Origin: Chlorella sorokiniana
Lineage: Eukaryota; Chlorophyta; Trebouxiophyceae; Chlorellales; Chlorellaceae
DNA length: 64,000 nucleotides
Direction: 5' to 3'
Assembly: GCA_025917655.1 (NCBI GenBank)
Contig: CP084614.1
Span: forward strand, 248,001 to 312,000
Below, piece after piece: positions 1 to 63,890 of the stretch. The notes under the pieces were generated by a model, which worked only from the letters and a program-made list of their open reading frames with translations, searched no databases and was not told where the DNA came from. The position numbers and the translations under genes were made by a program. How positions within the stretch are numbered: the stretch's first letter is position 1; each line of letters starts with the position of its first letter.

Positions 1-51
1 CGGCACCCTCAGTCCCTGAGCGGAACAAGGGGAATCCCCAGCGAAGCGCAC

Positions 52-3972: not shown

Positions 3973-5993
3973 TCAGGTGTCCAGTACCGCCGCCAGCGCA
4001 GCCGCCAGCTCATCGAGAGCTGGCGGCTCCCCCATTGCACATGGGCGGAGCGCTCAGCGACCGCCACCGCTGGCATGGCTTGCTGCAGCTGCGCGGGCGC
4101 CTGCTGCCCGGGCAGCCGGGGCGGCGCCGGCTGGGCCGCCGCCGCCGCCGCCCACTGCGCCGCCAGCAGCTGTTCGTGCTGCTCTGCCAGCAGCCGCTGC
4201 TGCTGCTGCTGCCTCTGCCCCGCCGCCGCCGCCGCCTCCTGCGCAGCAGCCTCGCTCCATGCGGCAGCCAGCTGCTGCTGGCTGGCCGCAGCAGCCGCTG
4301 CCGCTCGCTCCTCTCCGCGTTCCCGCAGCAGGGCCCGCAGCTGGAGCTCGAGACGGTCGGCCCGTTGGCGCTCCTGCGGAGAGATGGGCAGGAGCGGGCG
4401 GGGGCGGGGCAGTCAGCAGCGCTGCACTCAGACTTCCGTGGGTGACGGGGTTTCGGCCGCGGTACAGCTTCAGAAGTGGTGGGCACCAGGGGGCGACAGC
4501 CTGTTCTTCTCTGGAGGCCCAAGCAAGAGGGCAGCCGGCCGGCAGCTGGGCCGGACTGGCTGCACGGTGCCGTCCCCACCCACCCACCCAGCCCCCCACC
4601 CGCCCACCTGTTCAAGCGCCTGCTGCAGCACCCGAGCCTGCGCCGACGCTGCCACAGCCTCCGCCTGCGCCTCCAGCACCTCCCTGGTGACCGCTGCCCG
4701 CTGCCCAGTCGCCGCCACTGTCGATGGCAGCTGCTTCGGCGGGCTGGGCCCTACGTAGGGGCTGCCGCTCTGCGAGCTGCCGCCGCTGCTGCTGCTGGGG
4801 CCGCCGGCGGGGCGAGGGCTGCCGCTGCTGCGGCGGAGGAGCCCGCGGCGGCGGCGGCTGCTGCTGCTGCGATGAGGTCATCGGACAGATGCGGCTCGCT
4901 GCCCGCCCGCCGCATGCGCTCGGGTATGTCTATCCCTGCTGTGCCTCTCCGCGACGCCACGCCGGCTTCGCCTTGAAGCATGCCCCCAAGGCATCGCTGC
5001 GGTGCGGCCGCTGCACCGCAGCGGGAGCCGCCGCCGTGCGACCGCATTCCGGCAGCGTCAGTCGCCGCCTCCGGGCACAGGCATGCATGGCGGCTGAGGG
5101 GACCGTCCCCGCCAATTCTCCTGGACCGTCGCCCGCTCGGCATGCAGCCGCAGCAAAGGTGCTGGTGTGCTGGGCCGCCGCCGCATGCGCCGCCGCCGCT
5201 CCCGACGGCTCCGGGCAGCAGGGGTCGCCGCCGCCACACATCCCTGCTGGGCAAAACCAGCTGCGGCGGCTGGTGCAGCGGCAGAAGCGCTGCTACGAGT
5301 GCCGTCTGGGCGGCTGCGGCCCCTGCCCCCCCGCGGCCAGGGCCGTGGGATGGGCGGGCGCCTGCATTCGACCGGCCGGTGTTGATGGACAGCCGCTTGT
5401 GCAGCTGCGTCAGCTGCTCCTGCTGCATCAGCAGCGTTCGAAGGCTGGACTGGCGCGCCATGGATGCAGCCCATGGGTCCAGGGGCAGGCTCTTGGGCGC
5501 GCGGCCGAAGCCCATGGGGGTCTGCCGCCGCGGGCGTGGAGACGCTCGCGGCGGCGGCGGCGCCGCCGCCGCCCTCCGCCGCCGTGGCGGCGTCCGAGGC
5601 CGCTGCGGCGCTGGACTCCGATGCGGATTGCGAGCGGCGCAGGGTGACGACACTGGTGGGGCTGCGAGCATGGGTGGCGGGGTGGGCGGGGGGGCGTTGA
5701 GGGGACGAAGAGAAGGGCAGGAGGAAGGCGCCCTGGGGTGAAGGGGGTGCAAACAAGGCAGGGCCGCCTGGCCTGCTGAAGGCAGCGAGGCAGGGGGCAG
5801 CATGCAACGCGGCCCGGGATGCACAGAGCGAGGCCTGCGCCGGCGACGCGTGCAGCGGGCAGCAATCGCAGCGGCACCTGCTGTCGAAGCCGACGACCCT
5901 GACAGGGCTGCCACAGCGACTGGGCTCGGAAGGGGTGGCACCAGCATGCTGCTGCGCCAATGAAGATGCGAATGGGGAGAGACAGTCAGCCAT
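3973..5993 (-). CDS. Hypothetical coiled-coil protein A
   Basis: Not recognised as a known family. The ATG at 5993 opens MADCLSPFASSLAQQHAGA; the first exon probably ends at AGCAG|GTGCCG near 5872 and the next starts after CCACCAG near 5653 (SVVTLRRSQSASESS). A coding stretch at about 5380-5500 reads RQSSLRTLLMQQEQLTQLHK, followed by SEPHLSDDLI near 4890. The C-terminal coiled coil spans two exons: AEAVAASAQARVLQQALEQ ends at a GTGGGC donor near 4609, then ERQRADRLELQLRALLRE and a Gln/Ala-rich heptad region follow to the stop at 3973 (LDELAAALAAVLDT). The frame changes near 4800 (CCCC on the sense strand) and at 4027-4031 (CCCCC on the plus strand), each repaired by one added base, so no single open frame covers the gene. 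It could be a cytoskeletal, centrosomal or trafficking scaffold; function is not inferable. The middle exons are uncertain. Confidence 0.5.
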
Positions 5994-7907
5994 GGCGCCT
6001 CGGCTTTGTGCTGGTGAAGGGCCGCTGCCGCCGCTTGCCGGGACTTGGCCAGCGGCCTTGGCTGCTTGCTGCGTGTGTCGACGACCCGGTCTGCCGTCAA
6101 ACTTCTACGAGCAAGGTTGGGGCACAGCTCGGTCTACGAGGACACCGCCGCCCCGGTTGGGCAGGGGCTGGCTGGGCAGCTGCCCTTGTGGCCGCTCCTG
6201 CCGGGGCGATATGGTGTGAAGGAAAGGATGGCGCCTTGATTGAATATGGAGCATCTGCAGTGGTGCAAAGGAGCGATGAGCGCTCACGAGGGTTGCCGAG
6301 ATGTGTCCCTGCGCTCCATTCCCCCAAGCCACACCGCTGCTCTGCGGGGCTCAAATTCACTTGCTGGTCCCGTGGTACACTTTGACACAGTCTCGGCCCC
6401 GCTGACCGCCGACATCAGCGCAGGGTTTCACCTGCGACGCCTTCTCACGTGTTTCCCCGCTGATCACCTTAAATTTACTGCAGGCAAAAGCCGAAGGCAT
6501 GCATCTGGTCTGCAAGGTCACAACAATGAATCAGCAGCGCCTGCCGCGTGGCACAGGTCGGCATCACGTCATTAGGGCCATCGCCAGTGTGTAGGGTGCC
6601 CGCTATTCACTCACCTGTGTGATCATGGCACCATTGATGCAGTGCAAGCAGCCTGGCTGAACCTGACTTTCCGATGCACACTTTTCAAGCAGGCAGAAAG
6701 CGTCGCTCGGGCGCGCCATTTGCATGCCGATAGACCCACTGACTGTAATGGAACGGGCTGGGCGCTGTTGCGGCCTAGACGGCCGCGCCCGCCAGCAGCG
6801 GCGCTGGCAAGGATGGCGGGAGGCCATCTGCGGCCGCAGCAGCTGGAGCCGCGGCGCTGCTTGCGTGTTGTGCAGATCGGTGGCTAGGGTTGCCATCAAT
6901 CAATGTGGAGGATTCATTCAGGGTGGAGCACTATTGTGTGGAATGGCGGGCACTCCATGCGCCAGCCGCAGCATACGGAAAAGCGGTACTGGCTTTATCT
7001 GCTCCCCATCAACCTGCCGGCGCTCATGGCTGCTCAACCAGGGCTGCATACTTCTCCAAGCTCTTGGTTGAGGTATTTTCAAAACGTTGGGGGAAATTTA
7101 CTGCACTGACATGAAGAATTGCGCGCCAGCCGAATGCCCAGATTGACGTATGGGGGCGCACGGGTTGCAGCCCTGACACTCGGCAAAAACGTTGGCTAAA
7201 TTGAGCATACATGAAGAGGTGGGGGCTGCAGCGACTGACCACACAGAGATAAACATGTTCACGGAATTCGTATGGCATGGATCGCAAGCGAAAGGGGATG
7301 ATAATGATGATGTGTGGGCGGGGCGGGCATGGCGCTGCCTGGGCAGCTCTGCAGCAGTATCATCGCAGGGCAGCAGGGCAGGCAGAGCAGAAGAGATGAA
7401 AAACTGCGCGAAGAAGAGAGAAGAGCTTTCTCCTGAACTTGGTGTGTGGGTGTGGGTGGGGGGGGGGGCGCTTCTGTTAGAATTTGACCGTTGAAGGTGG
7501 ACAGTAGCTGTGATGGAATCATCAGGGAGGCAGAAAGTGCCCGCTTAGGGCATAGACAGACAGGATGCTCATGCGCAGAACAGAGGTGCAGCAGAAGTGG
7601 GAGGGCAGAGAGAGAGCGAGAGAGCGGTGCGGGCGCTACGATGAACAAGCTATGAAAGTAACGAAGGCACATGTACAGCTGACGGAGCGCTGCCGCTAGG
7701 ACAGATGCAGGGCATGCACATGGAGTTGCTTGGAGGCGTGTATCGCATGTACGGCATGAATTCAAGGATGCAAGCGAGAGAGCGGCAAGCTAAAGAGAAA
7801 TAAGTGGGCGTCAACAGAGAGCTACAAGTTGCGAGGCAGGCAGTTGCGCTAGTTGCAGGCGAACCGGAGAGCCGCGGTTGCAAAGTGATCCATTGTAAGA
7901 ACAGAAG
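5994..7907. other. Intergenic between the two coiled-coil genes
   Basis: No recognisable coding exons on either strand. The right part, with a G run at about 7457-7468 (GTGTGGGTGTGGGTGGG followed by Gs), is probably the 3' untranslated region of the gene ending at 7908. The left part would carry the promoter of the gene starting at 5993. Nothing else identified. Confidence 0.4.
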
Positions 7908-9789
7908 CTAGCCATCTAAAGAGAAGGGCTGCGCGCCTGCAAAGGCAGATACCAGGCCGGGACTGGCTGCCTGAGGCTCAGCATCGATTGGGTTTTCAGA
8001 AAGCGCAAGCACAGCCTGCGGCGGCTGCTGCCGGCCCTGCCGTGGTGCCGGCCACCCACGGGAGCCGCCCTGCGGCAGCCCCCTGCCCGCCATGATGGTG
8101 GCCAGCCGGGCGCAGCCTCCGGGTGCAGAGGGGTGCGCGCCTGGGCGCCGCCCGCGGCCGCAGCCGTGGCAGCGGCAGCAATGGTGGCGGCCCCGCTGAC
8201 TGTTGCAGCAGGTCGCGCTCAGCGCTCACTCGCTCCAGCTCCAGCTTCAAGCGGTCCAGCTCCTCGTCCTTCTGCAGAGTGGAAAGCGCCGGAACAGAAG
8301 CTGTGACACAAGGCCCAGAACGAGCGCTGGCCGCCGCCGTGAAGGGTCCCTGCCCAGCGCGGACAGCCCAGCGGCAGGAGCGGCGCCAGCTGGCCGTGCG
8401 CTCACCCTGCGGATTGCATCCTGGAGCCCCGCCACCTGAGCCTGGGCCGTCGTGGCGGCCGCCTGCAGGGGGCCGGGGGGGTGGGGGGCCGAAGCAGGGG
8501 AAAGGTAGCATGGATAAGAGCATCTGTGTTGGCAGCAAGTTGGGCCATGGTAGCTCGGAGGGTGGGTGGCCGAGGAGGAGGGTTGCAATCCCCGCCCTCC
8601 AGAGGCTTCCTGTGCAATACCAGCCGGGCCCCACCTGTGCATCAAAGAGCTGCCGGAAGGAGGAGACTGCCTGGCGCTGCGATACGGGCGCAGGCTGCTG
8701 CTGCAGCTGCTCACGGCTGCGCGTCTGGCTGCGGGCCCCAAACGCGGGGTCACTGGCATGGGCGGTCGACTGGCGCCGCTGCCGCTGGGGGTGCTGCGCT
8801 GGGGCAGCAGCTCAGAAGGCGGGCGCTCGGGCTGCGGCAGGGGAGGCTGGCTTGGGAGGGTGGCCGCCGCCGTGCCGCCGGTCCCCACCGATGCGGCATG
8901 CTGCGAGCGGGAGCCGGCAAAGGCGTGGAGCGCTGCCGCGACAAGATCATCTGGCAGGCCTTCGGGGGCAGTGCGAGCCTTGGACAGCCTGCGTGGGGGC
9001 AGGGATGGCGAGCAGGGGGCTGGGGGCCGCGGCGGACGCATGCGAGCGAGAGCGAGCAGGGCAGCAGGCAGTCCAAGGCCTCCGCACACCCTTGCGTGAT
9101 GAACGCACAGCACGGCGGTGTGGCAGGGACAGCGTGGCATGTGTCGGGTTGCAGCAGCGCGCAAGGTAGCATGGTGGGAGGCACCAGGGTGCAGGCTAGG
9201 TTCCGACGCAGGTGCTCAATCGCGAGCAGCGGCAGCGGCGCAGGCGAGTCCAAGGGCACAGCCCACCCTGCGATGTCTCACCCGACGGGCATGTCGATGT
9301 TGCCGCTGCAGGCCCGCGCCAAGCCTGCGGGTCCCGTACGCACCGGTGGGCCAGGGGCCGCCGTGCTGGGAGGGTTGCTGGGGGCGCCAGCGCCGCGGGT
9401 GCAGCCACCGCCGAACTCGGCGTCTTCTTGGATGCGGGGCACCCGCGTGCCTCGTGAGCTCACCGTGCGCAGGCTACGAGTGGTTTGGATGGTGAGCCGA
9501 GGCACTGCGGCCGGCTCTCGCTGACGCTGCACCATCAGCTGCTGGGAGAGAGCTCCTATGGAGCTCTGCCGCTCTGCCAGGCTGCAGCAGCGGGGAGCTC
9601 TGAGTTATCGCCGCTGGATGACTTGCTGTTGTCAAAACCCTGGACACGAAGGGTGCCGGGCGAGGATGAGGCCGACTCGCTGTCGAAGCACGCCAGCGCA
9701 AAGGCGCTCGTAAAGGTGCAAGCTCCCCCATGGTATGCAGACCCGCGGAAGGAGCCGAAAGTGATTAGGGGGACGAGCCCCCGTCCCAT
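7908..9789 (-). CDS. Hypothetical coiled-coil protein B
   Basis: Not recognised as a known family. Recognisable coding segments on the minus strand, in order: SESASSSPGTLRVQGF (about 9640-9690); an exon after CTGCTGCAG near 9588 with AERQSSIGALSQQLMVQRQR and then LTIQTTRSLRTVSSRGTRV; GLPDDLVAAALHAFAGSRSQ (about 8900-8970); SREQLQQQPAPVSQ and FRQLFDAQ ending at a GTGGGG donor near 8639; TTAQAQVAG near 8450; then the coiled coil KDEELDRLKLELERVSAERD (about 8210-8270). The tail ends LSENPIDAEPQAASPGLVSA through FSLDG, with the stop at 7908. The tail frame is reached only if two G/C runs near 8190 and 8115 each lack one base. The start at 9789 (MGRGLVPLITF) is a guess. The exon plan resembles protein A, so the two may be old tandem paralogues. 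Confidence 0.5.
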
Positions 9790-10471
9790 CAAACCCCGCT
9801 GCGCTGTGGACGCGCGGGGCACCGCAAGAGGCAAAAATTGGGAACTGACTAGCCTGCATTCAATGTGTCAGAGTCAGCCCTTAGTTGTTTGGTGAAACAT
9901 CAATCAAACATAGAACCGTCTACGGGCCTGCTGTCCGTGCCGCAGCAAGGCTAGCCACGCCTGCTTCGCAGCCAACACATATGTGAGGTCTTGGCTCCTG
10001 TTCAGACAGAAATCTAGGTTTGCTCTGTTGATGCGGAAAACAAGGGCAGGTGCTGCCATTTATCCTGCAGCAGATGATTGCATCGCCGCCATCCACTCTG
10101 TAGCCGTGCCGCTGTAGCCGTGCCGCTGCACCCTGCCGCCGCACCCTGCCGTGCCTCGGGTAAGGAGCGCAGACTGCGTCCTTCAACGCATGTTCAAGTC
10201 GTAATCGCCACCTCACATGTGTTGTGAGTCACGGCAGTGCCTCATGAATGCGTTTGTGTAGGTTCCGCTGTTTCGGACCCAACTGAGGCACCAACTGAGG
10301 TGACACGTGGCCCTGCTGGAGCGAGGGACTGCACTGTTGATGCCCTTGATGGTGAATAGCAGACAACGGACGTGTAGAACAACCGAACGCTGCCCATTCT
10401 GCTTCTGCTGCCTCATCGCTGCACCAAAGCTCGGTGGGCAGGGTCTTGCGCCCTGCCCCGATCCATCAAGC
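9790..10471. promoter_or_regulatory. Divergent intergenic region between coiled-coil gene B and the B3/LSD1-like gene
   Basis: Head-to-head interval of about 680 bases: the coiled-coil gene reads left and the B3 gene reads right from 10472. It should hold both promoters. A near-direct repeat of CCGCTGTAGCCGTG is visible around 10103-10130. No convincing TATA box or other core element could be assigned by eye. Confidence 0.4.
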
Positions 10472-13400
10472 ATGGCGAAAGGCAAGGGATTGTCGTTCAC
10501 AAAGGTGCGCGGCAGTCGGCGGCGAGTAGCAGCCGTGCCACATGCAGTTTCAAAACACAGCACTTCTGGGAGGGAGTTCGCTTCGTAAATGGCTGCTTCT
10601 AACGGCGCAATGATCAATCCCCACCGCAACGTGGGCAGCCCAGCCTGCGATTGGCGTGGCCACTGCATGCAACCAGCCCGCTGCCAATCGCAACGACGCG
10701 CTCCCATCCTTGTGCCCCCAGGTGCTCAGCGAGTGTTACATGCAAAACGCGCCAGTCGGCTTGGAAACCAAGTTCCACACAGCGTACTTTCATGAGGAAA
10801 AGACGGAGGTGCTGCTGAGGAACGCCAGGGGCCAGGCAGTTCCCGGGCGCGTGACCAAAAAGTTCAAAGACTCCGGTGCTTCGGGTGCGCTGAGCCGCCG
10901 CTGCCGCCCATGCTGCGGTGCCACGCATGCGCAGGGCGGCGGAAGAAGGGGCAGCTGCTCAAGGGGCTCGTGCCAGCAGCCAGGCCTGGCTGCCGAGGCC
11001 ACCCGCCTGCTGCGCCTGCCGCCTCCCCCTCCCGCCTGCAGTGGCCAACTTGACCAGCGGGTGGCCCAAGTTCAGGGCTGGGAACAGCCTGCAGGCTGGC
11101 GACGAAGTGAAGTTCGAGTATGAGCCTGCCAGCGGTGGCAAGCTCCCCGCGATACGCATCACGCTGGTCAGCCGAGGCAACGCCAACAAGCAGGCCGAAA
11201 AGATGCAGGCCGCGCTGGCAAGCAAGCGCAGAGCCAGCGCCGCCGACGGCGGGGCAGCGCCGCGGGGCGGCAGCCCGCCGCGGCAGGGGGCAAGCGCGGC
11301 GGGCAGAAGGGCGGCGGCGCTGGGCCTGCCGCAGAGCGTAAGCGGGCGCTGGGAGGAGGTGTGCTGGGTCGTCGTGGCAAGCATGGGCGGCAGGATGGCG
11401 CTGCCGCCAGACAGGCAGCGGGGCCAGATGCTGCGGCGGGGGAGGGCCAGGCCCCCAGCTGGCTCCTGGAGAGGAGGGGTACCTCCGGTATGTACCGACT
11501 GAGCATGCGCAGCGAGCACAGCAGGCACAGCAGCAGCAGGGGAGAGCAGAGCAGGGTTCCCCGTACCAGGAGGCCTATGCGCTGCTTCCTTCCTGCAGCA
11601 GCAGCAGCGCCGACAGCTCTGAGGCCAAACACGGCGGCAGCGACGGCAGCGACAGCGAAGACGGCAGCGACAGCAGCGACGGCGAGGCCGAAAGCCATGG
11701 CAGCGACAGCAGCGACGGCGAGGCCAAAAGCCATGGCAGCAACAGCAGCGTCGGCGAGGCCGAAAGCAACGGCAGCGATAGCAGCGACGGCGAGGCCGAA
11801 AGCGACGGCAGCGACAGCAGCGACGGCGAGGCCGAAAGCGACGGCAGCGAGCGGAGAGCGCGGCTGCCCAAGCGGCGCCCAGCGGTGGCAACAGCCGCCG
11901 CCGCCGGTGCCGGGCGGGAGAGCCGCCGCCCAAGCGGCGCCCGGGAGCCGCGGCAGCCGGCCGATCTTGGCAGCCGCCACCACACGTGGCTGCTGGCTCG
12001 GCGCCACATGCGCAGGGCGGCGCCAGCTGCGGCGAGGGTGGGCGCCGCCGGCAGCAGCCGGAGCGCCGGAGGCGGCGGCGACGGGGGGCTCCATTGTCGA
12101 AGGCACCAGCGTGCTGCTGGTGAGCCGCGCTGTTGAGCTGCTGCCCTGTTGTATTCGTGGTGATTCGCTTGTTTCATGCAATGAACGGCGTTTGGGCCAG
12201 CAGCAACTAGCATGCTCGTTACAGCTGCATGGCTCTGATGGGGAGCGCCAGAGCAGCAGCCCCGACCGGCTTGCTGGCCGGACTGGCTGAACTGTTTGTT
12301 GTCGGCTGGACTCTTTCTGAGCTGGGGCCAGACACGCAGCCGCAGCCTGCTGCACGCAACACACAGCGTAACACGCGCCTGGCCGAGCAAAGCAGCAAGG
12401 CAGCCGAAACCAGCAGCAAAGGCAGCCGAAGCCAGCAGCACAGGCTGCCGACGCAACAACACAGGGTGCGGCGCCTCTGTGCAGTCAAGGCCACCTCTCC
12501 TGCCCCCCCCCCCCCCTCCCCCTCCAGCGCTTCCCCCAACGTGCCCTGGCGCAGCCGCGCCAGAAGTGGGCAGTGGCTCGCGTGGCGGCGGTGGCACCTG
12601 GGGCGGCACCCTCAGCCTGCGCCTGATCCGCCCGCTGGCGCCGCCGCCGCAACAGCATGCGGCTGCTGCGGGGCAGGGCGCGGCGTCGCCGCCGCCGCAA
12701 CAGCACTCGGCTGCGTCGGGGCACGGGGAGGCGTCGCCGCCCTACAGGAGGATGTGGCTGCTGCGGGGCAGGGCGAGGCGTCGGCGCCGCGGCGGCCCAG
12801 CCCGGCCAAGGCTGCTGAGGCGCTGCAGTGTGCGGCTGCCGAGGTGGCGGCCGTCGTGCCCGATGGCCTCCTCGGCTGGACGGTGAAAAAGGTGGGGCAG
12901 CCTCGCGCTTTACAAATGCGTGGTATGTATGCGTGGCAGCGCCAGCCCCTGGCTTGGCTATCCTGCTTCCGCGCCTCCTGCCGCCCTGCGCCCGGGCAGC
13001 TGCAGCAAGGGGCTGCCCGCGCCTGGGACCTGGGAAACGCCCGCAGAGCGACCAGCTTGCTGGCCCCGGCGCCTCCCCGCCCCCCAGCCGCCGCTCGCCC
13101 CGTTGTGTCCTCGATCCTCGCAGCAATTCCCAGGCCACGGCCCCTTCAAGTGGCCTGGTGCCGTGCTGTCGCGGCGTTTCGATGGCCAGGTGGTGCTCTA
13201 CACAGTCAGGTTCCGCGGCTGTCGCTGCCGCCGCCGAGGCGCTGCCGCTGGAGCGCTGCTGCTGAGATGCTGGATGTAAGCTATAGTTTTGCATCCCAAA
13301 GCTTTTACTGTGTGCCAAATAGGTTTGTTTCGTGCCTCAAATGTGTGCAGTTATGAGGACGGCGACATGGAAGAGCTCGAGATTCATGAGCTCGTGCCTT

Positions 13401-16400
13401 GGCTGCATGCGCCGCCCGCTGACGTGGCGCCCGCTGATGTGGCGCCCACTGATGTGGCGCCCGTTGATGCGCCGCCCGCTGATGTGGCGCCCGCTGATGC
13501 GCCGCCCGTTGATGTGGCGCCTGCTGATGTGGCGCCCGCTCATGTGGCACCCGGCAGCGGCGCAGCTCGGCAATGCTGCCCTCCGCCTCGCGTTGCGCGC
13601 CCCGCAGCCGTGCCTCTGATGCCGCGGCCGGCGGCGCGGCGTGGCTGCAGCCCGAGCCCCGTCCCCAAGCGTTGGCGGTGCCGGCGATGGCGGCCCTGGA
13701 TGCAGAGGGTGGCTTCTACGCGGCTGCCGGCGCTGGCCACGAGCGCGGCGCCCTCGCTACGACAGTGAGCAGCGCCTCGCTCTGTGGCTCTTCTGTTGTT
13801 GGCACGCTCTCTCGTAGCACCACCCTCCGCTCCCGCTGAGAGGCGTTGCCCTCGCCGGCAACAGCCTCCACCTTCTCGCCCCGCCACTGGCCCCCCTCCC
13901 CCGGCCCCGCTCTTTCAACTCCCTCCTTTGCATCCTCATGCCGCCCCACCCGCTGCCCCGCCGATCAATCCACCCTCCGACCTCGCACCACGCATGTGAG
14001 CTCGCCCAAGCCTGCTACTCACCTCCACTTGGGTCCCATGCTGCCGCAGGGGAATCGGGCATGATGCGGCCGGTGGGGCCCTGGATCGCCGACGCCAAGC
14101 GCGGCACGGTGCTGGTGGGTGGCAGGCCGCCGCCTTTGGCTGCGCCTAGGGTGTGTTGCTGCCTACGCCTGCATGCAGAGCGTTTGCGAATCGTTTACGC
14201 GTCAAAGGTCTGGGTTGGCAGATCAGCCGTGCTGTGGGTGGGGGGTGGGGGGGGGGGCAGCTGGCTGCGCGGCGCCGCAGTGGGCCCCGCAGCTGCTTCC
14301 CCTGCTTTGCTTGGCTAGCCCGGTGTGACGCTCCCGATCGCTGCATCCTGGCAAGCCCAGCTCACCTGCCCCTCACTTACCGCCAAAAGACACTCGCCGC
14401 TCACTCATGCCTGCTGGGCGAGCTGGCAGCTGAGTGAGCACAACTGTAAGCAGGCTCCTACCCTACCATGCCCTGTTTCGTGCCGTCCCCGCAGGCGCGC
14501 AAGGGACGCCTGGACAAGCGTTTCCTGCGGGACCGCCAGCTGCCGGAGGGGCAGGAGGCGTACCGCAGCGCAGTGGTGCCAGGCTGGATAGGGGTGCGGA
14601 GCGGCTCTGACCCACTGCCTCACGCTGCGGCCAGGGTTAAGGCGGCGAGGCGGCACCTCCTCTTCCGTCCCTGCTGTGTAGTAGCCCCTGCCCGGCAGCC
14701 GGCGTCGTGCCTGCGACCGCCTGCTGTGCCGCTTGCTGTGCCGCTTGCTGCCGTCAAGTAGCCGACGCAGCTTCCAACCAGCTCCTGCGGCGCCGCCCCT
14801 GCCAGGTCACAGTCGTGGAGAGCGAGGAGGTCAAGCACTGGAGCCCCACATACGAGTGAGCGCCGCCCCCTGCAGCTTTAGGCGCCACGCGACTCGAGCT
14901 GCGCCAGCGTGCCGCGACGCCACACCCCGGCCGCTGCCCGTCCACGCTGCTGCCCCCGCAATGCCGCTAGCCGCCTGCCCCTGCTGCCTCGGGCACATGC
15001 ATGCTTTCTACCCTTGCTGGGGCTGCTGCAGGCACACTCGTGCGCTAAACCCTGGCCCCTCTTTGCTGGTCCCAGGCTCACGGGCCTGCCCATGGCGACT
15101 GACTTTGCGTCCACACCTGCACCCTTGCTGGTGGTGCAGGGGGCAGTACTGCATCGCATTTTGGGACGCGCACAACGCACGCGTTGTGAAGGTGCCCAGC
15201 GTCGCCAGCGACAGCGTCGAGGAAGCGGTGAGCTCCTTCCTTTCCCCTCTCTTTGGTGTGCTGGCGGCGGTACAGCCAGGGTGCATTGCGCAATCGGCAG
15301 CAGGCTGCGCTGGCGGGAAGCCCTCTTGGACCACAGCTGCCCAATTTTGGATCTCGGATGTCCAATCAGATCCCTTTCATCCCCCCGCAGGCTGCCTTGT
15401 ACGACCGCCTCGCCCTCTGCTACTATGGTCCCGCCGCAGGCAAGCCCTGCCTGCTGCTTTCTTTCTTGCCCGTCCTCTCCCTCTTGCGCGCCTCACGCTG
15501 CCCAGCAGCTGCGCATGGCGGCGTTCAGAGAGCAAAGGGAGGGGGCCCCTGCTTGGCTCCATGCCAGGGAGCACCCCGCTGGCGCCTCCCCACCGCCGGC
15601 TGTGGCCCTGGCTGGGTAGCTGCCGCCGCCTTTGTGCCGAGCCCCCAGCCCGGCCTCGATCTACGCCACTCCCCCATCAGACAGCTCCATCCTGCCCTTG
15701 ACCATGCAGACACCAACTACCCCCAACAGATGAGCTGCTGGAGGAGCTGGGGGAGCAGGTGGGCGCCGCCCCGCCGCCGCCTGTGGCCAACGTCGCCCGC
15801 CCGCTGCTTCTGCGTGCGACGCGTGAGGGTGCTGCATTGTCGCCCACATGTCTCCCCCTCTTGGGAAAAGCCCAGGCCTTCCTTGCAAACAATGAAACTG
15901 CCGTGTGCCTTCTCCTTGCTGGCACTCCCTCACCGTTTGCGCTCCCTCCAACTTTGCCTGCCCTGGTTGCGCTCTGCAGGAGGAGGGCTGCAGCCGGCAG
16001 GTCATTCCCCTCGCGGCTCGCCTGCTGTGGATGGAGCAGAACATTCCCGATGCAGCGGTGGCCTCCGAGCTCACCCAGCAGCAGTGGCACGAGTGGGAGT
16101 GAGTGCTATCGCTTTGCAGCGTCTCGGCCTGTCTGCAGCCGCATGGCCGGCGCAGCTTTGCTGGGCAAGTGTTCGGCCGTTGGGTGCGACGCGCTTGTAC
16201 CGCCTCCTCCCGCGGTACCGCCCCCGCAGGCTGGACATAGAGGAGAACTTCCTGTGCCGGCGGCCCACCGCGGAAGCTGCCACGCAGCTGGCTGCCCGGC
16301 TCAAGTTCCTGGTGCAGCAGGTGAGAGGAAGCTGGGTATGGGAGCAGAAGGGAACGAGACGGAGCTAGTGCAGCGGGAAGCGGCAGACAAGTTGGTGCCG

Positions 16401-19400
16401 CTCCCACGGCATGTGGTAGCGGCTCTGCGCACGGCGGACTCCCCGCCTGCCTGCCGCTCCTCCCGACTCCCCTTTCTTGCACATGTGGACAGCCGATGCG
16501 CTGTTCCATCCGGCTGTTCCATCTGGCTGCTGCTGTGCAGGTGCGCGACGAAGCACTGTACCCGGCGTACCGCGGCGCCGCGCTGCAGCGCTTCCTAGCT
16601 GCCTGCGACGCCTGCACTGAGACGGGCACGAAGCTGCACCACTATGCGCCCTCGGCAGCAGAGTGCGTGGTGTGCGCAACAAACATGAAGCTGGTGAGAA
16701 GTTAGCAGGGACGCTGGCGCCGTGCTGCCGGCACTCGTCTTTGCAGCCGTTTGCGCTTGACAGGGGCTGACCGCAGCGGGGGGTGTTGGCCTGACACGTG
16801 TTATGGCCTGCCAGGCGGCAGCATAATTGGTTGGTTTGCCTGGCTGTTTCGCAGGGTGCCAGCAGCAAAGCCGTCTTTCATGGATCAACCGCGCTGCTGG
16901 GTGTGTGTGTTTTGGGGGCGTTTTTGGGCGCGTTGTTTATTGGGGGAGGGGGGCGGGGCGCGCGATTGCAAGACGCAACCGTCAGAATTGGCCGCCGCGG
17001 TGCTTTGCTGCTTTGCTGCAATGGTCGAGCCTGGGAATGGCGACGCACCTTTATGGGCCCACCCACTTGAGCTGATGCTGTGCTCACGCTGTGCTCACGC
17101 TGCATGGTGCTGTGCTGTGCTCACGCTGAACCTTGCCGTGCTGTCCTCACGCTGTGCTGTGCCGTGCAGCGCTGCTACGGGAGCTGGAGGTGGCCGTCCT
17201 CTCCCAGGAGGCGCTCTCCGCTTTTGCGGGCGGCGCCAGCCCTGATGAGGCCGCCGCCGCCGCCGAAGAGGAGCAGCGGGAGCTGGATGAGCGGCTGCGG
17301 GCGTGGGCCAGCGGCTGCCCAGCCTCCAGCATCGAGGCAGGGAGGAGCAAAGCGGCGCGGCAGCGGCGTGGCGACGGCAGCGCCGCGGTGGGTGCCGTGC
17401 GGCGGGCGGCGCGCGGGCGGGCCGGCGGCGGCGCTTCTAGAGCCGTGAGACGGGCGGCGGGGGGGGCGCCACGCCAGGCGAAACCCCTGCCAGAGGGTGA
17501 TTCCGCTGCGCTGCCTGCTTGTATTTTCGCTCCTGCCTCCTCTGCGGGCCCCTCGTCCGCCTGCCCTGGCTGCAAACCTCGCCGTGCCTCCTGCTCTGCC
17601 GTCACTCATCCCGCTCTCAACTCTCCACTGCTGCTGCTGGTGGCCTAAAGTATGCTCCCCTTACCCCCCCCCCCGCCTCCCCCCACACACACCCAAACCC
17701 ACACACGTGCACCCCTGTCCTCACCTCAACACCAGGCTTGGAGGTGGTCGTCATTGGCGGCGGCGTGGCGGGCCTCAAAGCGGCAGGGGACCTGCAGCGA
17801 GCGGGGGCTGCCGTGGCGGTCCTGGAGGCGAGGGACAGGTGGGGGTGCCACCGCTCCTCTGCTGTGGCTCTTGCTGGCTGCCGCCGCCGCCTCGTTGCAT
17901 CGCTGACTGCGAGGCGGGGCATGCAGCGGGGACCGTCCTTCCATGGCAGCAGCGCAGTAGCTTGCGCAGCCGCGCTGCGTGCCACGGCGGACCTTCCGTG
18001 TGCCAGGCAGCAGGAATGGCAGTAGGCTTTCGCAGCATTGTTCTTAGTGTTTCTTCTTCGCTGCTGTAGGCTGGGCGGCCGCGTCCACACGCACACTCTG
18101 GCTGCCAGCGGCGTCGAGCGCCCGGTCGACCTTGGGGCCACCTTTGTGTGCGGTGAGCACCGCTTGGTAGTGAGCGCAGCGGCTTGTGGATGGCAGTACG
18201 CCGCCGTGCCAGGTTGCCGACTGCTCTCAGAGCCGTGCCGAGGCCTTCTTGCGCTGTGCCACTCGAGCTGCCCGACAGCTGGCAACGCGACAGCCCGACA
18301 GCTGGAGAAAGGGTTGTGGCCGTGCAGGGGCTCTTCGCGCCGCCGGTGCCCGGGGCACTTTGTCAGCCGCACAAGCCTCTTTACTGGCAAGCTGTGCCAG
18401 CCGTGGTTTGCAGGCACCTCCCGCAAGCCCCCGTCAACCCTCTGCTGGAGTATGCTGTGGACGGCCTCGGCCTACAGCTGCGCCCCAAGCGCCGAGACGG
18501 CCCCGCCGCCGCGGCCCTCTACGACTGGTGGGCTGCCGCCCCACCGCCGCCTGGGCCCTCCTGGACTGCCCGGGAAGCTCTGCATGCTGGCCGCACACGC
18601 GGAACGCTGCATGCTGGCCCCGCTCGCCTGCTGAGTGCCCCGCTGCTGCCGGCAGCCCCGCTGCGCTTGCATTGTGTGTTGCAAGCATCCAGAGCTGCAA
18701 CTCATGCACGCCGTCGCCACATGCCCCGCCGCCGCCACCACCATCTTACCTCCTCCTTTCACCCCCCCCACCCACCCCGCAGCGACTTCCGGCCCATCCC
18801 CAGCGAGGAGCTGGAGGCGGCGGAGGAGGTGTATGCGGAGCTGCTGGAAGAGGTGTTGGAGAGGTGGGGCACGTGTGCGGCGGTGTGTCTGTCGCTGAAG
18901 TGCCGGAGAGGCGGGGGCTGTGTGTGGTGTGTGGGTCAAGGCTGGGTGGGAGAGCATGGAACCCTGCTGGTGGAGGAAAGGGGGCGGTGGAACTTTCGTT
19001 CCGGTTCTTTCTTTGGAAGGGGGGGGCAAGGGCTGAGGTCTCGGGCCTTGGGGTCTGCTCCAAGAAGCAAGCAGGAGCTGCAGCGGCCTGCACCCTCCTC
19101 GTTGCTGGGTGCCCTTCAGAGCGTACCGTTCACCGCCGCTCGCGCCGGCCTGCCTTCCCATGCTGTCGCGCAGGGGCGAGGCGACACGCGTGGGCAGCCG
19201 TGAGACGCTGCAGGACGCTTTTGACGCCGTCTTGGGCCGAATGCAGGTGGGAGGGGGACTGGCTGGAGGGGAGGGGCACTGCTTGGTGGGAAGGGGCATT
19301 GGCTGGCGGGGGTCCTTGGAGGGTTGGCAAATGGGCCGCATGGCTGGGAACCAACTTAGTACTTCCGCAAGCGACGCATCGCTGTGGCGGCTGACGCCAG

Positions 19401-22400
19401 ACAGCGCTCTGTTGCTGACGATCGTCTGCGCGTTTGTGCCAGCCCCTTCACCCCTGCATCCCATCCATCCCCCCAACCACACTCACACACATACACACAC
19501 ACACATCGCCTTCCCCCAACCACAAACACACCCACATACACGCGCCACCACCCCCAACTCAAACTCGTCCTCCCTGCCGCTGCAGCTCCCCCCAGGCGGC
19601 GCGCCATCGTCGAGGCATACCTGGTCGACCTGTATGTGGCGCCCCCTCCGCCATGAGCCTCTCGGGCTCGGTGTCCACCGGCTACGACGGCGCCCACGAG
19701 CTGGTGGTGGGCGGCTACAAGCAGGTGGGTTGGCTGCGGTCGCTGCTGCTGCTTGCCCCTCGACACACACACCTTGTTGCGGGGGTGTGAGGGCGGCACA
19801 GGGGCTTCCTGCAAGTGCTCCGCAGCGGCAGGCGGCGCGTCGGCAGGTGGGGTGAGGCGGTGGCGGTGGCACGGCTGGCAGTCAGCGGGCCAGGCGCGCT
19901 GTTTCCTCACCTTACAGCCGCCGCTCGCCGCCTGCGCCGTTCCTATGTTCCTACCAACACCCCCATCCCGCCTTCATCCCCACCCCACCCACCCATCCAT
20001 CCACCCACCCTCCCATCCCCCTCAGGTGGTGGATGCGCTCGCAGAGGGACGGGCAGGAGAGCCCGGCACCCCCTCAACCGCTGCGGGACGTTCGCCTCAA
20101 CGCCGTTGCCACCGCTGTGCGGCTGCTGCCGGGCGGGGCGGGGGTGGAGGTGGACGTTGCGGGGCAGGCAAGGCGCGGCCGAGGGGGAGGGACGGCCTGG
20201 GGGCAAGGGCTGGTTGTGCCGTCTGGACGCAAGGAGTGTTGATACCCCCTTCAGCCAACGCGCCCCGCCATCGATTGCGTTGCTCCAGCTCCCTTCCAGC
20301 CTGCCCTCGTCCGCTGTTGGGGGGCTCTGCCGACTGCCGACAGCCCTCGCCTGAGGGTCTGTCTCGATTGCTGAATCGCCAGCTCCCTTGCCGCCGCTGC
20401 TTGCACCGCTTGCCCGACACGCCCGCTGCCGCCCTGCCGCCCGTCCACCGCCGCCGCAGCCAGAGCCGCTGCGGGCCCACGCTGTGGTCTGCACGCTGCC
20501 GCTGGGCTGCCTGCAGCGCGGCACCGTCGCCTTTGACCCGCCGCTGCCGGGTGAGTGAGTGGGCTGGGGAGGGGCGGGTGGCTTGCACGCGCTGCACGCC
20601 TCCTGCAGCCGACTCTTGCCGGAAAGCCACACCGTCATTCTGCCGCTTGTGCGCTGGTTGTCCTGGCCCTGCTGCCTCCCTTCCTCCTCCTCACTGTCAT
20701 CGTATTGCTGGCATGCCTGACGCATGTGTTTGCTCACCTGCCCGGCTCCTGCAGCCTACAAGCAGCAGGCCATCCAGGGGCTGGGCATGGGCACCGAGAA
20801 CCGCGTGGCCATGCTCTTTGATCAGGCAGGCCGGGGGAGGGGTGCCAGCGGCGGCGCCTGCGGCAGGCGCGCTGCTGGCTCGCGTGCGCTTAGCTGCCCC
20901 TTTGGCGGTCCTGGTGGCTGCGATGCTGCCCTGGCTTGCTGGGCCCTTTTTCACACACACACACTGCACCACATCCCCCCAATGGCCCCACCTGCTCCTG
21001 CCGCAGGTGTTCTGGCCGCAGCAGCCGCACTTCCTGCGCCCGCTGCGGGGGCGGTACACCTTGCCAACCTGCATGCGCTGGGGGTGGGGGCGTGCTCTGC
21101 TCTTGGGTGCGCCCGCAGGTGCGCCGCTGCCGGCCGCAGGCCTCCCCTCTGCTGCCCCCCGCCTCCCTTCCCTGTAAACGCCCGGCACGCCCTGCTGCGC
21201 CTTCAGCTTTGACTCCCGCTGTTTCCTTTGGGTTGCTGCACACTTGTACGGCGTGCCCGGCGGCCTCCCGTACTGCGGGCACCGACCCTGTACCGCTCGC
21301 TTGCCTGTCCGTACTGCTGTACCGCAGGAGATCGACGCCTTCGAGGCCATGAGCGACGAGGAGGTCCTGGCTGACGTGGCGGCGACGTTGAGACAGGCGT
21401 GCTGCGGCCGCGCTGTGCATGCTGTGCATGCCACGCAGCGCTGCGGCTGCTGCAGCCAGCAGCGGGCAGGCATGCGACCGCCACCTGCTTGCCACGCCCA
21501 CACAGCAGGCTGGCTTGCAAGCGCACACACGGGGCGGCGCATCCGCCTCGGGTTGCTCATTATGTGTCTACCTGCCTGTTTGTTTGCGGTACCGCAGATG
21601 TATGGCGATGCGTACCGCCCTCCTTTGGCCCACGCCATCACCCGATGGCAGCAGGCAAGTGACAGCTGCCGCTCAGCTTGCTAGCGTGTGGGGACGCTGC
21701 CTGCCTCGCCGCCTCCTCTCCCAAGCCTGGGTTCGGCTTGGCCGCTGTCCAAGTTCTGTGATGGCGCATTTCCTTCATACACCATCATCTCATTCCCCCA
21801 ACCCCCATCCCCCTTTTCTCCAGGACCCCTTCTGCTTTGGCGCTTATTCCTTCGTGAGGCCGGAGGGGCGCAAGGCCCACTTCGACTGGCTCTCCTACCC
21901 TGGTGGGGCCCCGCCGTCCGCTTGCCGTTTGCCTGCCGCTTGCTGCTTGCTGCCTGCCGCCTGCTGTTTGTCGCCAAACACGGGCCAGCCCGGTCTGTGC
22001 TGGATCGCGCTGAGTTGCGCTGCGCTGCTCTGGGCTGGGCTGAGCAGCTTCCGGTTGGGCTTCTGTTGGGCGGGCGGCGCTGCCCTGTGCAGTGTGCCTT
22101 CCTCGGCAGGGCGGCCCTTGCTTGCCTGCTGCTTTTGGAGCCTGCTCCTCTGAGAGACGGGCAGACTTGCAGCGCTGTGCTGAGCGAGATGCAGCAACCC
22201 TGCTCTCCTCTCAACCCTCCCGAGCCTACAGCCTCGCTCTCCCTCAACCACCCTCTCCCCCCCCTGCCCGACCCGCGCGCAGTCAGCGGCAACCCCGCCG
22301 CCGACGAGAAGCAGGTGGAGCAAGGGGGGCGCGGCGTCTCATTGGAGGTGGGTGTGTCGGTGCGGCGCCGCGCGCTGCTTGCAACACTGCAGAGCCCTGC

Positions 22401-23019
22401 TGTCTTGCCTGGGAAATGGGCAGTGCTTGCAGGCCTGCAGCACCCATGTGTGCAGCCATGTTCCCTCCCGGCTGCACAGCCTCCTCGGCCTCTTTCATAC
22501 GCGCCAGGGCTGCCCAAGCGGGTCCCTTGCGAACCAAGCGCTGCCGCCCTCCCGCTGACGGCCTCGCAAAGGGCGTGTGGCTTGCCCCCTGCGTGCCCGC
22601 AGACGCGGTTGTGGTTTGCTGGAGAGGCCACCTCGAAGCACGATGCCTACACGGTGCACGGAGCGTATGCAACGGGTGAGGGCCGCCGCCGCTGCTGCCT
22701 GACAAGTGCTGCCTGACAAGTTAGTTAAAAGGAGAAGGGACACCTCCGCCGCTGGGTTTGAGTAGCCAGCTGGGAGGAAAGCACTGCTGCCCCTTGTCGT
22801 GCATGCTGGGCAGAGCTGCTGGGGCTCCGCTCGGCTCGTGCAGCCGCCGCCGCCACGCTCGGGCTTTCTTCTTTCCTCGCCGCAGGGCAAACCCAGGCGG
22901 TGCGGCTCAAGCGCTGGTGGCGGGAGCACCATGCAGAGGTGCAGCAGCGGCTGCAGCAGGCAGCAGCACCGGGCGGGGCAGCGACGCTGCCAGGCAGCCG
23001 CGTGCGGCAGCCAACGTGA
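10472..23019 (+). CDS. B3 / Tudor-like / LSD1-type flavin amine oxidase, probable multidomain chromatin protein
   Basis: Probable nuclear chromatin regulator. The short first exon at 10472-10504 (MAKGKGLSFTK) splices in phase to 10722-10884 and then to 11042 onward, which encode a B3-like domain. Next come an H1-like ARPKA repeat block (11640-11846) and Gln/Ser-rich linkers. A Tudor-like module follows (12891|13124-13209|13351), reading VPDGLLGWTVKK, FPGHGPFKWPGAVLSRRFDG and YEDGDMEELEIHELVPWL. Then come nine DVAPA-type repeats and several small helical exons (14047-17400). The amine oxidase starts at 17736 with VVVIGGGVAGLKAAGDL, then GGRVHTHTLAASGVERPVDL, CTLPLGCLQRGTVAFDPPLP and, near the end, WFAGEATSKHDAYTVHGAYA; stop at 23019. 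The FAD-binding and C-terminal motifs resemble plant LDL demethylases more than polyamine oxidases. Frames break in C/G runs at 11286, 12533, 12740, 19642 and 20069. The B3 and oxidase parts could instead be two genes; no SWIRM domain was seen. Confidence 0.62.
10722..11165 (+). other. B3-like DNA-binding domain within the long gene
   Basis: Two exons, 10722-10884 and 11042 onward. The first gives LETKFHTAYFHEEKTEVLLR with ARGQAVPGRVTKKF; the second gives SGWPKFRAGNSLQAGDEVKF and LPAIRITLV. The order matches the plant B3 fold: an early strand pair, then a G-W-x-x-F ... N-x-L-x-x-G-D-x-x-x-F block. The splice is in phase (TCG G|TG). The family call rests on this pattern; the DNA target is unknown. 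Confidence 0.7.
11640..11846 (+). repeat. 36-base tandem repeat coding a basic Ala/Pro/Lys-rich (H1-like) segment
   Basis: About five imperfect 36-base units. In the frame that splices in phase from the previous exon they encode 12-residue units of the type ATARPKAMAATA. Another frame would encode acidic Ser/Asp/Gly/Glu repeats. Base differences between units fall mostly at third positions of the basic frame (CCG/CCA, GCC/GCA/GCG, GCG/GCA), so the basic reading is preferred. This resembles the tail of histone H1 and suits a chromatin protein. Confidence 0.65.
13408..13553 (+). repeat. 15-base coding minisatellite (nine DVAPA-like units)
   Basis: Nine 15-base units of the form GCTGATGTGGCGCCC follow the Tudor-like exon in frame and encode PPADV, APADV, APTDV, APVDA and similar. 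They form an acidic, proline-rich linker. Units differ by single bases; the copy number is likely variable between strains. Confidence 0.85.
17062..17166 (+). repeat. GTGCTCACGCT minisatellite in an intron
   Basis: Degenerate tandem copies of GTGCTCACGCT and GTGCTGT run up to the splice acceptor (CCGTGCAG at about 17168) before the exon encoding LLRELEVAVLSQEALSAF. Confidence 0.7.
17736..23019 (+). other. Flavin amine oxidase (LSD1/LDL-like) domain region of the long gene
   Basis: Exons from 17736-17838 (dinucleotide-binding GGGVAGL) through 22887-23019 (tail RLKRWWREHHAEVQQRL, stop). The predicted reaction is FAD-dependent oxidation of a methylated lysine amine, by analogy with LSD1. Intermediate motifs: VNPLLEYAVDGLGLQLRPKR, HELVVGGYKQ|VVDALAEG, GMGTENRVAMLFDQ|VFWPQQ, DPFCFGAYSFVRPEGRK. 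Frame changes at 19642-19646 (one C short) and 20069-20073 (one C too many) interrupt otherwise well-matched sequence. If the long gene is split by others, this is the most securely identified part. Confidence 0.85.
19478..19540. repeat. CA-rich microsatellite in an amine-oxidase intron
   Basis: Interrupted CA tract (CACTCACACACATACACACACACAC and neighbouring CACACCCAC) just upstream of the acceptor for the exon encoding AIVEAYLVDLYVA. Confidence 0.8.
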
Positions 23020-23334
23020 GGTGCTGCTCTGCACCCACCTGCTCTGCGCCCACCTGCCTGTGCCCCGACCCCCCCCGCCCTTGACACAACCATGCCTCAC
23101 ACCCCCTTGCCGCTGCTTGCTTGTTTGCTGCGCTGGGTACAAGTTGACTGCATCAAACGACAGGTACATTCATTATCTGCCTGCCAGGCCCGAGCCGCAC
23201 CGCAGCCGGGATGTGCGCCAGAGCAGCTGCGCCGTCAGCAGGCGGCAGAAGGCCCTCAGCCTGCTCCAGTCCGCTGCAGCTGCTGCCTGCCGCTGCTGCC
23301 TGCTGCCGCTGCGGGAGCGGTTGCCGGGCGGCGC
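23020..23334. other. Convergent intergenic region
   Basis: Tail-to-tail gap between the amine-oxidase stop and the neuferricin stop. It contains a C run at about 23069-23079 and no recognised signal. Both 3' untranslated regions must overlap or be short. Confidence 0.45.
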
Positions 23335-25241
23335 TCACGCCGTGGGGTCGGGCGGCGAGGTGGCGCAGCGGGACGCGTCTGGCGGGCAGCCGTCGTACAG
23401 CCGCGCCGTACCGCTCGCCTCCCGCTCCTCCACACATCCGCACCGCTCCTGCAGCCGCCCCTGCCAGTCCGGCTGCAGCACGCGGCGGGGAAGCGGCCGC
23501 CATCGCACCATACGGAGCCGCCTGCGGCCAGGGTGGGCGGGTGGGTCAGGCAATGAGTTGGATGGGCGGGAAAGCGGGAGGAGGGCAAGCAAATGCACAT
23601 GGGCCGTTGGCATGCATGCAGGGAAGAGGCTGCCCATGAACCACGACCAACCGCAAGACTTGGCGCTTGCCGGCCCTACGGGCCCCGCTCCCGCCCGCCC
23701 TCACCCTCCGCCTTGCTCCACCGCACGTTGCACGGCTCCTGCTGCTGCGTTTGGCCACCCCCTGCTCCGCCGCCTCCTTGGCCGCCGCGTGGGCCGCCGC
23801 AGCGGCCTCCATGCGCGCAAGCAGCGGTGTCGGCTGGCCCTGGGGGTCGTAAAACCGGCCGACAACGCGCCCCACTCGGCGATACTCCTGCAGGGAGACG
23901 ATGCGGGGAGGGGGGCATGGCGGCGGTGGGCACGGCCAGTAGGAACACACAAAGAGCTGCCACGCTCCCCAAGCAGCGGTGAGCGAGCAGCGACGTCGTG
24001 GCACCCGTGGCAGCAGGCCACCCCTGCCGCTGAGGAATTGCTGCCCTGAGCACTCCAGCCGCATTGCACTCCGCTCAGCACCAGCCGATCCAGAACAGAA
24101 AGCGGCGCCCTTACGTGACGGGAACAAAGGAAAAGCCCCGGCGCAGGGGCAGCTGATCGGACCTTGTGCGTGGAGTAGAACTCCCTCCAGCGCACCAGCT
24201 CCGCCGCCTGCTCCCCGCTGAAGTCTGCCACGTCGTCGTGCGCGTCCTCTGCAAACCTGCGGGAAGCAGGGGGGGGGCAGAGAGAGTGTCCGCATAGGCT
24301 TGCACGGCATCAGGCCGGTCAGCGTGGCGCACGCTGATGTGGAATGACGTCAGCTACCCCCACCACTTTTGCAATCCGGGGCCCTAAAGAGGAAGCCGCC
24401 AAGGAGGCCAGCTGATCAACTTTGGGGTTGGCGCACCTGCCGGTGACGTAGGAGCGGGAGGCGTCGCGGCCAGCAAAGCGCGAGTACCCGCCCTCGGGCC
24501 CTGTGGCGGGGGATGGCGGAGGTTGACCCGGGCAGGCATTTGTGTGTGCTCAGACAGCGCTGCGGCAAAGGCAGCAGCAGGGCGCTGTCTGGCTGCGCGC
24601 CAGGCTGTGCAGGGACCCCCCGCCACCTGCACAGCAGTTCTTTACAGGCTCCCACCTTCCACCACAGCCCGCGCCGCTCCTGCTTCCGCCCCCGGCCGCC
24701 CCCCGCCCTGCTGCCCTCCATCCCACAACCCACCAGCCCTGCTTTCCAGACGGGCCGCCCCCCGCCCTGCCAGCCCCGCCCCCCGCCCCCGCCTGCCCTC
24801 CCATCCCCAGCACCCACCGTAGTGGCGGGCGCCGGGCGTGACATCAAACACGGAGCCCAGCACTGCTAGGTAAACCCTGCGGCTTCTGCGACCATCAAAC
24901 CGCGCCAGCTGCTCAGCAGAGAACAGGCCAGCCTGCAGGGCGGCAGGGAGGCCGCAGCACAGGTGAAGAAAGGGGGAGAGACGGAGTCGCTGGTACATCG
25001 CTTGCCAGCGGCGTTTTCTGGTGGGCGCAAGGGCGCGTGCAGAGGCACCGCCGACGGTGGACACGTCAGCACCGACGGAGCGCCAGAACACCTGCGCTAG
25101 CGACCCTGAGGTGCCGCCGCTGCCGTGCAGGAGGGGGATGAGGAGGTAGACGGCGGCCAGGATGGCGGCGGCGGCGAGCGCGGCGGCGCCTGCTGCCGGG
25201 CGCACGGCATGCCTGTGGCGAGGGACGCAGCGGCAGGGCAT
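23335..25241 (-). CDS. Neuferricin-like membrane-anchored cytochrome-b5-type heme protein
   Basis: Member of the MAPR/CYB5D2 group, which binds heme through a cytochrome-b5-like fold and is anchored by one N-terminal membrane span. Exons in order: 25092-25241, 24818-24932, 24437-24500, 24163-24256, 23705-23887, 23335-23521. Exon 1 gives a hydrophobic span (AALAAAAILAAVYLLIPLLH). Later exons give AGLFSAEQLARFDG, RRVYLAVLGSVFDVTPGARH joined to YGGPEGGYSRFAGRDASRSY, then DVADFSGEQAAELVRWREFY and VGRVVGRFYDPQGQPTP. The conserved CNVRWS segment (EPCNVRWSKAEG) and VWCDGG follow, but each sits one frame away from its flanks (near 23750 and 23495), probably from indel errors. The ATG at 25241 is the first in frame before the membrane span; an upstream exon ending FRRPLFGDTTR near 25597 could also join in phase to give a longer N-terminus. 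Confidence 0.85.
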
Positions 25242-25927
25242 TGCGACACATGGATCGCTGGAAAGGGCATGCGCGTGTGTTTCGGGCCCCTCCCTGCTGG
25301 CATGCAGGTTTGCCACTGCTGCTCGCGCTGCTTGTTACCAGCGGGCGCCGCCGCCGACCCACCGTCGCGCCAGCTGCCGCCCTGGCGCCTCGCGCTGCTG
25401 CCAGGCTTGGGAGCTGCTGCACCGTTCTCCCTTCCCTCCCCTTCTTCAACTGCATGTAACAGGGAGACGAGTAGCACAGGTCAATCAAAAAAGGGAACCG
25501 CAGCGGCAGCAGGTGGCGGAAGCGTATTGAAGAGAGCAGAGGCAGGCTGAGTGAGGCTTCCCGGCATCGGTGGGGGTACTTGAACCTTACCTGGTTGTAT
25601 CTCCGAAGAGGGGTCGCCGGAAGGCGGCTGACGCCTGTGGTGAAGCCCTGCTGCCGACATGTTTCGAAGCTGAGGAGCACAATGGCTCCTTTTGGCAGCA
25701 GACGCGGCTGATCAATGAGCGTCGGGTGCAATTAGCCGGGTTCACCGCCTGCGCTTGCCGCCCGAACAGCCATGAAACCAAACTCGCCAAGCGCAGCACG
25801 GGGTGCACGCAAGCCCCTTGCACCTTGCACGATTACATTGATCAGTGATCATCTTTGTTTTGTACCAATATCATTTCAATTCAGGGGCATCCTCAGTCGA
25901 CATCCCTAGCCCCAGCCAAAAGTTAGC
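25242..25927. promoter_or_regulatory. Divergent intergenic region between the neuferricin and SAP genes
   Basis: Head-to-head interval of about 690 bases that should carry both promoters. The minus-strand part may include an extra 5' exon of the neuferricin gene (about 25597-25680, ending at a GTAAGG donor). A comparatively A+T-rich stretch lies at about 25835-25880. No core promoter element assigned. Confidence 0.4.

Positions 25928-59264: not shown

Positions 59265-63890
<4,626 letters not shown>

Follow-up and report, generated by a model that had tools for sequence, protein, structure and literature searches.

We identify a locus in Chlorella sorokiniana where exons for a B3 DNA-binding domain, a Tudor domain and an LSD1-like amine oxidase follow one another on the plus strand, and the locus may encode a single algal protein in which the first two domains are joined to an LSD1-derived, possibly silent flavoprotein domain, i.e., a DNA-addressed pseudo-demethylase. 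The locus lies in a 64,000-nucleotide stretch (hereafter, the window; GenBank assembly GCA_025917655.1, contig CP084614.1, C6:248001–312000 of a 38.8-Mb genome comprising 15 contigs) with a G+C content of 0.58–0.74 in 2-kb steps, and positions below are those of the window. These G+C values, the B3 and PTM-type Tudor domains, an excess of TGTAA and plentiful GC-AG introns point to a green alga, probably one of the Trebouxiophyceae. On balance, we lean towards B3, Tudor and oxidase parts in a single chain. It is an even call whether they make up one large nuclear gene of ~12.5 kb with 34 putative exons (E1–E34) and a protein of roughly 1500 residues, and the chances are likewise balanced for the proposed order of B3, acidic low-complexity linker, PTM/DIR17-type Tudor, middle region of ~370 residues and SWIRM-less LSD1-like amine oxidase. 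Exon borders were picked by eye and afterwards checked for phase and frame.

The oxidase spans E19–E34 (17736–23015). When its exons were joined across the 15 introns, with X placed at frame steps, they matched Pfam PF01593 (Amino_oxidase) at 2.2e-57 and 195.8 bits over positions 1–442 of 443, and the best solved relatives were LSD1 (1.6e-37, 132.6 bits), KDM1B (1.6e-27, 99.6 bits) and spermine oxidase (7.9e-27, 97.3 bits). By homology this region is thus an FAD amine oxidase domain as expected of KDM1/LSD1 proteins. NCBIfam gave general FAD-domain matches, none above cut-off among the 25 of 26 matches listed. The Pfam scan covered six joined exon pieces of the gene at E ≤ 1 (13620–13764, the end of E7, is outside the scanned pieces) and found no SWIRM domain in them; a SWIRM search gave no match anywhere in the window either, its three hits (E ≤ 1) falling at two other loci. 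The stop at 23017 is overlapped by a donor-like GTGAGG, and a further exon of the oxidase gene is possible by eye in 23016–23560.

Alignment of the oxidase with its relatives casts doubt on methyl erasure. LSD1 GNLNKVVLCF aligns with GTENRVAMLF here, so that the catalytic-lysine position is occupied by Arg, while LSD1 and a SWIRM-bearing LSD1 paralogue on the same contig (GTMNKV; SWIRM at C6:1283194–1283340, locus L053) have Lys. This Arg lies in E27 (20755–20825, ending GMGTENRVAMLFDQ) at what we take to be Lys661 of LSD1, a residue that LSD1 activity requires. The HWDQDD stretch, an acidic stretch near the H3 tail, is lost as well, with SGSVSTG here versus CHWDQDDP in the paralogue (the LSD1 piece compared does not cover it). 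Between aligned borders there are ~60 residues where LSD1 has ~170, i.e., no Tower-sized insertion. The Arg and the missing HWDQDD suggest that the oxidase-like domain would be mainly a flavin- or partner-binding module or act on another substrate, and the fold is probably weakly active, retargeted or silent. A preliminary description of this DNA had proposed an LSD1-type demethylase in a chain that binds DNA, reads chromatin and erases methylation; the domains bear this out in so far as the amine oxidase is confirmed and LSD1 is its best solved relative, whereas the erasing activity is doubtful, also in view of the SWIRM domain not found in the gene. A variant of our interpretation, and one that is not exclusive with it, is a single chain with a demethylase or amine oxidase active despite the Arg. 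Conservation of the N-terminal FAD-binding motif and of the TVHGA segment at the C-terminal side speaks for it, but given the replaced lysine and the absence of the paralogue's HWDQDD we regard such activity as rather unlikely.

Upstream of the oxidase, the middle region (E9–E18, 14495–17496) has no recognised domain, and its two pieces (126 and 245 residues) had no Pfam match at E ≤ 1. It is joined to the oxidase without interruption: the 13 exon pieces from 14495 to 18431 (the last of 18 bases) were translated across 12 junctions with no stop or frame step, indicating that the oxidase and the region before it are parts of one gene. A genome search found no paralogues of the middle region, as all nine matched places fall inside the window itself. 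An AP2-like segment suspected by eye in E9–E12 was rejected. It had no Pfam match at E ≤ 1, and a profile from six of the nine AP2 hits in the genome gave 3.5 bits, a score exceeded by two of 200 shuffles and equalled by a third; the best PDB hit was the AP2 protein WRI1 (0.014), and AP2/ERF membership was rejected overall. Five of the 26 reference introns of E8–E34 (14114–22886, borders by eye) start with GC rather than GT; a figure of 7.7% GC introns is given for Chlorella sp. in an excerpt of an earlier study (PMC3033335).

The Tudor domain is encoded by three exons, E5 (12528–12891, with PPPQQHAAAAGQGAAS-type repeats and the Tudor start), E6 (13124–13209, the Tudor core, backed by the phase check and Pfam) and E7 (13351–13764, the Tudor end, YEDGDMEELEIHELVPWL, and an Ala/Pro-rich linker). 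Within 12742–13562 these exons matched PF21743 (PTM_DIR17_Tudor) at E 1e-9 and 38.4 bits, above the cut-off of 27.2, and the match crosses two introns. The Tudor-like reader of the preliminary description is therefore, as predicted from homology, a PTM/DIR17-like Tudor domain. Seven hits for this type of Tudor were detected in the genome at E ≤ 0.1 (13349–13396 in the window and six others), one of which exceeds the cut-off as a single exon.

The B3 domain is divided between E2 (10722–10884, its first half, backed by phase, Pfam and BLASTP to a paralogue) and E3 (11042–11337, its second half and a basic linker), preceded by E1 (10472–10504) with the start codon and MAKGKGLSFTK. Joined, E1–E3 (10472–11337) matched PF02362 at E 9.8e-7 and 29.1 bits, 1 bit short of the cut-off of 30.1, and shared 36% identity over 84 aa (BLASTP, 1e-13) with the second B3 protein of the genome, which with its exons joined scored 40.4 bits for PF02362, above the cut-off. 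E1–E3 is accordingly a B3 superfamily member by homology, just under the curated score, and a search of the spliced pieces recovered all three of the domains suggested earlier (B3, Tudor and amine oxidase). The agreement of splice phases across the B3 exons also held (0/0 and 1/1). A phmmer search of the PDB with the B3 piece gave three hits at E ≤ 10, none a B3 chain. The genome was searched for B3 exon by exon, which sets a lower bound, and two hits were found in all. The other one (locus L052, contig C4, ~3410–4940, C4:182.4–183.9 kb) belongs to a gene that opens like E1 (ATGGCTGAATTTACAAAG, then gtgggt). The basic tail of its protein includes KRRGRPPGS, which we take to be an AT-hook-like motif. 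The published record, as excerpted, attributes ABI3/HSL-like and REM-like B3s to chlorophytes (PMC11685440) and one B3 gene to Chlamydomonas (PMC10262750).

Between the B3 and Tudor exons, E4 (11459–12119) encodes an acidic Ser/Asp/Glu repeat. It had been read as H1-like repeats, and to compare the two frames we used a codon model built from 3247 codons at other places in the genome that match kinases or amine oxidases (33 loci out of 38, the five with stops inside the match being excluded); its noncoding background is 15 introns of the window gene and hence not independent of the gene model. Over 11599–11855 the acidic frame (frame 2, SDGSDSSDGEAES) scored +58.6 bits and the H1-like frame (frame 0) −23.0 bits, and synonymous choices alone gave +23.5 versus −6.8. 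Codon bias thus supports the acidic SDGSDSSDGEAES repeat, the H1-like repeats result from reading the wrong frame, and by this model the coding frame does not have the Lys/Ala/Pro-rich tail of a linker histone H1. The acidic piece had no Pfam match at E ≤ 1.

Whether the B3 and oxidase exons belong to one chain depends on two weak links, and we infer that the B3 and Tudor exons are probably in the same transcript. The first link is a putative intron (12120–12527) from the B3/acidic part to the Tudor part. Its sites were scored with matrices derived from 26 of the window gene's own introns, hence not independently of the gene model. The donor CTG/GTGAGC after 12119 scored 10.4 bits and the acceptor before 12528 scored 9.6 bits, and the phases agree (1/1) for the acidic frame, as had been anticipated for a GTGAGC donor near 12118 and a strong acceptor. 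On the plus strand, with true sites included, donors of at least 10 bits occur at ~0.36 per kb and acceptors of at least 9.5 bits at ~0.89 per kb. The stop-free frames of the gap scored as noncoding (−22.0 bits for 12134–12228 and −18.7 bits for 12229–12527), and its G+C (0.635) and pyrimidine (0.512) contents fall within the spans of the 26 same-gene introns (0.607–0.713 and 0.465–0.699, respectively). Downstream, the first part of E5 (E5a) scored −12.7 bits in frame 2 versus −30.5 in frame 1 with the full model and +8.0 versus −6.2 with synonymous choices only, and its AAAGQG-type repeat carries on in the Tudor frame past an apparent frame step near 12.74 kb. Frame 2, the frame of the E5 repeats, lacks an ATG ahead of them, and no donor of at least 5.5 bits was found between 12160 and 12527, so that a separate Tudor gene would be left without an obvious first exon; the exception is a set of ATGs, the first at 12229, whose frame has a poor codon score.

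The second link is a putative pyrimidine-rich intron (13765–14049) between E7 and E8 (14050–14114, ESGMMRPVGPWIADAKRGTVL). Within 13540–13841 a single donor reaches 2 bits, namely the 13764 site of the preliminary description (3.5 bits), and the acceptor before 14050 scored 8.0 bits. The gap is 285 bases long with a pyrimidine content of 0.677, compared with a mean of 0.569 (sd 0.055) in the 26 reference introns.

Several observations weigh against a single chain or against parts of its exon model. At the first link, the gap of 408 bases exceeds all 26 reference introns (131–380), 12350–12439 within it shows weak coding potential in frame 1 (+5.8 bits), and E5a is below zero in the chosen frame by the full codon model; the synonymous-only score is noisy, as nine of the 24 domain-backed pieces (E1, E2, E6, E7a and five of the 18 oxidase pieces) are negative when scored in their own frame. 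The E3–E4 junction is weak, the donor at 11338 (0.1 bits) leaving the 3′ end of E3 uncertain and the acceptor (−11.3 bits) the start of E4, and the start and end of E4 score −3.4 and −11.3 bits in the chosen frame by the full model. The L052 B3 gene reads by eye as stand-alone (MAEFTK, B3 exons, a basic tail and a stop), and the phases of E7 and E8 mismatch by one base.

The stand-alone L052 gene, the only other B3 hit found and one with the same first-exon style, favours an arrangement of two neighbours, namely a small B3 gene from 10472 to a frame-2 stop at 12131–12133 and a Tudor-oxidase gene from ~12.2 kb. The ATG at 12229 would suit the latter, as it opens frame 1 to 12891 with no frame step. 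However, this reading scored −18.7 bits over 12229–12527 and −30.5 over 12528–12738 (versus −12.7 for frame 2), and the spacing from stop to start is only ~95 bases. There is also no plus-strand TGTAA in 7898–13275, an argument of little force since the oxidase gene too is without a near one (the next is at 25455). We consider this arrangement fairly unlikely. TGTAA occurs 30 times on both strands of the window versus 14.5 expected (sd 4.1); as a poly(A) signal it was not decisive for gene ends, because the oxidase gene has none close to its end. We regard a split at the second link as improbable; it would give a B3-acidic-Tudor gene that ends at ~13.84 kb, followed by an oxidase gene whose start would be the paired ATGs of E8 (14061). 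The E7/E8 mismatch, the in-frame ATG ATG, a frame-1 stop after 13836 and a TGTAA at 14445 speak for it, while the intron-like pyrimidine richness of the gap, the 8.0-bit acceptor and a stop-to-start distance of only ~220 bases speak against it. The claim of one chain is thus favoured, with the unbroken stretch of 14495–18431 behind it and both weak links unproven.

At about nine sites within or next to exons the gene appears to change frame, a feature absent from the preliminary description. These steps include those near 12.74 kb in E5, 13.56–13.62 kb in E7, and 18.43, 19.59, 19.65, 20.06, 21.06 and 21.09 kb in the oxidase; by eye, the steps near 18.43 and 19.59 kb may be avoidable by other splice sites. 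Were the steps real, the locus would be the remnant of such a fusion gene, decaying as a pseudogene, in keeping with the loss of the catalytic lysine and HWDQDD. However, the SWIRM-LSD1 gene at L053 has, by eye, two apparent within-exon steps (~3860–4060 and 5740–5960) in G/C-rich runs, the L052 B3 gene apparently has one in its tail (by eye), and, of the window gene's 22 exon pieces with domain support, 21 scored above zero in the expected frame with the full codon model, the piece below zero (21007–21118) holding two steps. Since steps occur in these other genes and codon scores are positive, assembly errors are likelier than a pseudogene, which we deem very improbable. The L053 steps suggest base-level assembly errors, which could upset gene prediction elsewhere.

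Elsewhere in the window, a protein kinase exon match was detected at 61002–61136 on the minus strand (C6:309002–309136, 4.8e-11). No relatives were found among viral contigs and bacterial or archaeal genomes, a result without weight, as algal genomes would not be expected in such collections.

To reach chromatin, LSD1-type enzymes normally rely on SWIRM and partner proteins. The window gene shares the FAD amine oxidase with KDM1A/LSD1 and plant LDL1-3/FLD, with LSD1 closest among solved proteins, and differs in the points noted above and in carrying B3 and Tudor domains instead. According to an excerpt of PMC6558185, all four Arabidopsis LSD1-type members carry SWIRM, and LSD2 and fungal homologues have a zinc finger or HMG box in addition to the LSD-type oxidase. 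KDM1B/LSD2 and fungal SWIRM1/2 therefore resemble the window gene, as far as that excerpt goes, in having an LSD-type oxidase and a DNA-binding domain in one chain; here the binding domain is B3 and no SWIRM was found. In Zhou and Ma's scheme (PMC2579438), KDM1 is defined by SWIRM plus oxidase, and all KDM1 proteins form one clade, with two in green algae; lacking a detected SWIRM, the window gene falls outside this definition. B3 and a Tudor-like fold occur together in ARF transcription factors, and the excerpted account (PMC11685440) places the ARF B3 inside a PHIP-type Tudor and restricts RAV and ARF B3s to streptophytes, whereas the window gene has its B3 at the N-terminus, a Tudor of PTM/DIR17 type and an oxidase after it. 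The over-cut-off PF21743 match is shared with PTM/DIR17-type Tudor proteins, and neither DDT nor PHD, both of which PTM carries, was matched at E ≤ 1 in the six Pfam-scanned pieces. No B3-LSD1 fusion was found in the literature searched, which comprised mostly titles and starts of abstracts, with most subscription journals outside it.

In the proposed chain, recruitment to DNA would fall to the B3 domain and the reading of a histone mark to the Tudor domain, and ordinary H3K4 demethylation would be left to the SWIRM-LSD1 on the same contig. The LSD1-like part may thereby steer chromatin factors to DNA instead of erasing methyl marks. If this holds, an LSD1-type protein with a B3 domain would carry its own means of DNA addressing, and this in a lineage where B3 genes are few (the search of this genome gave two hits). 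Should the oxidase prove dead, nature would have retained a demethylase fold as a scaffold, in a cell that also has a SWIRM-bearing paralogue.

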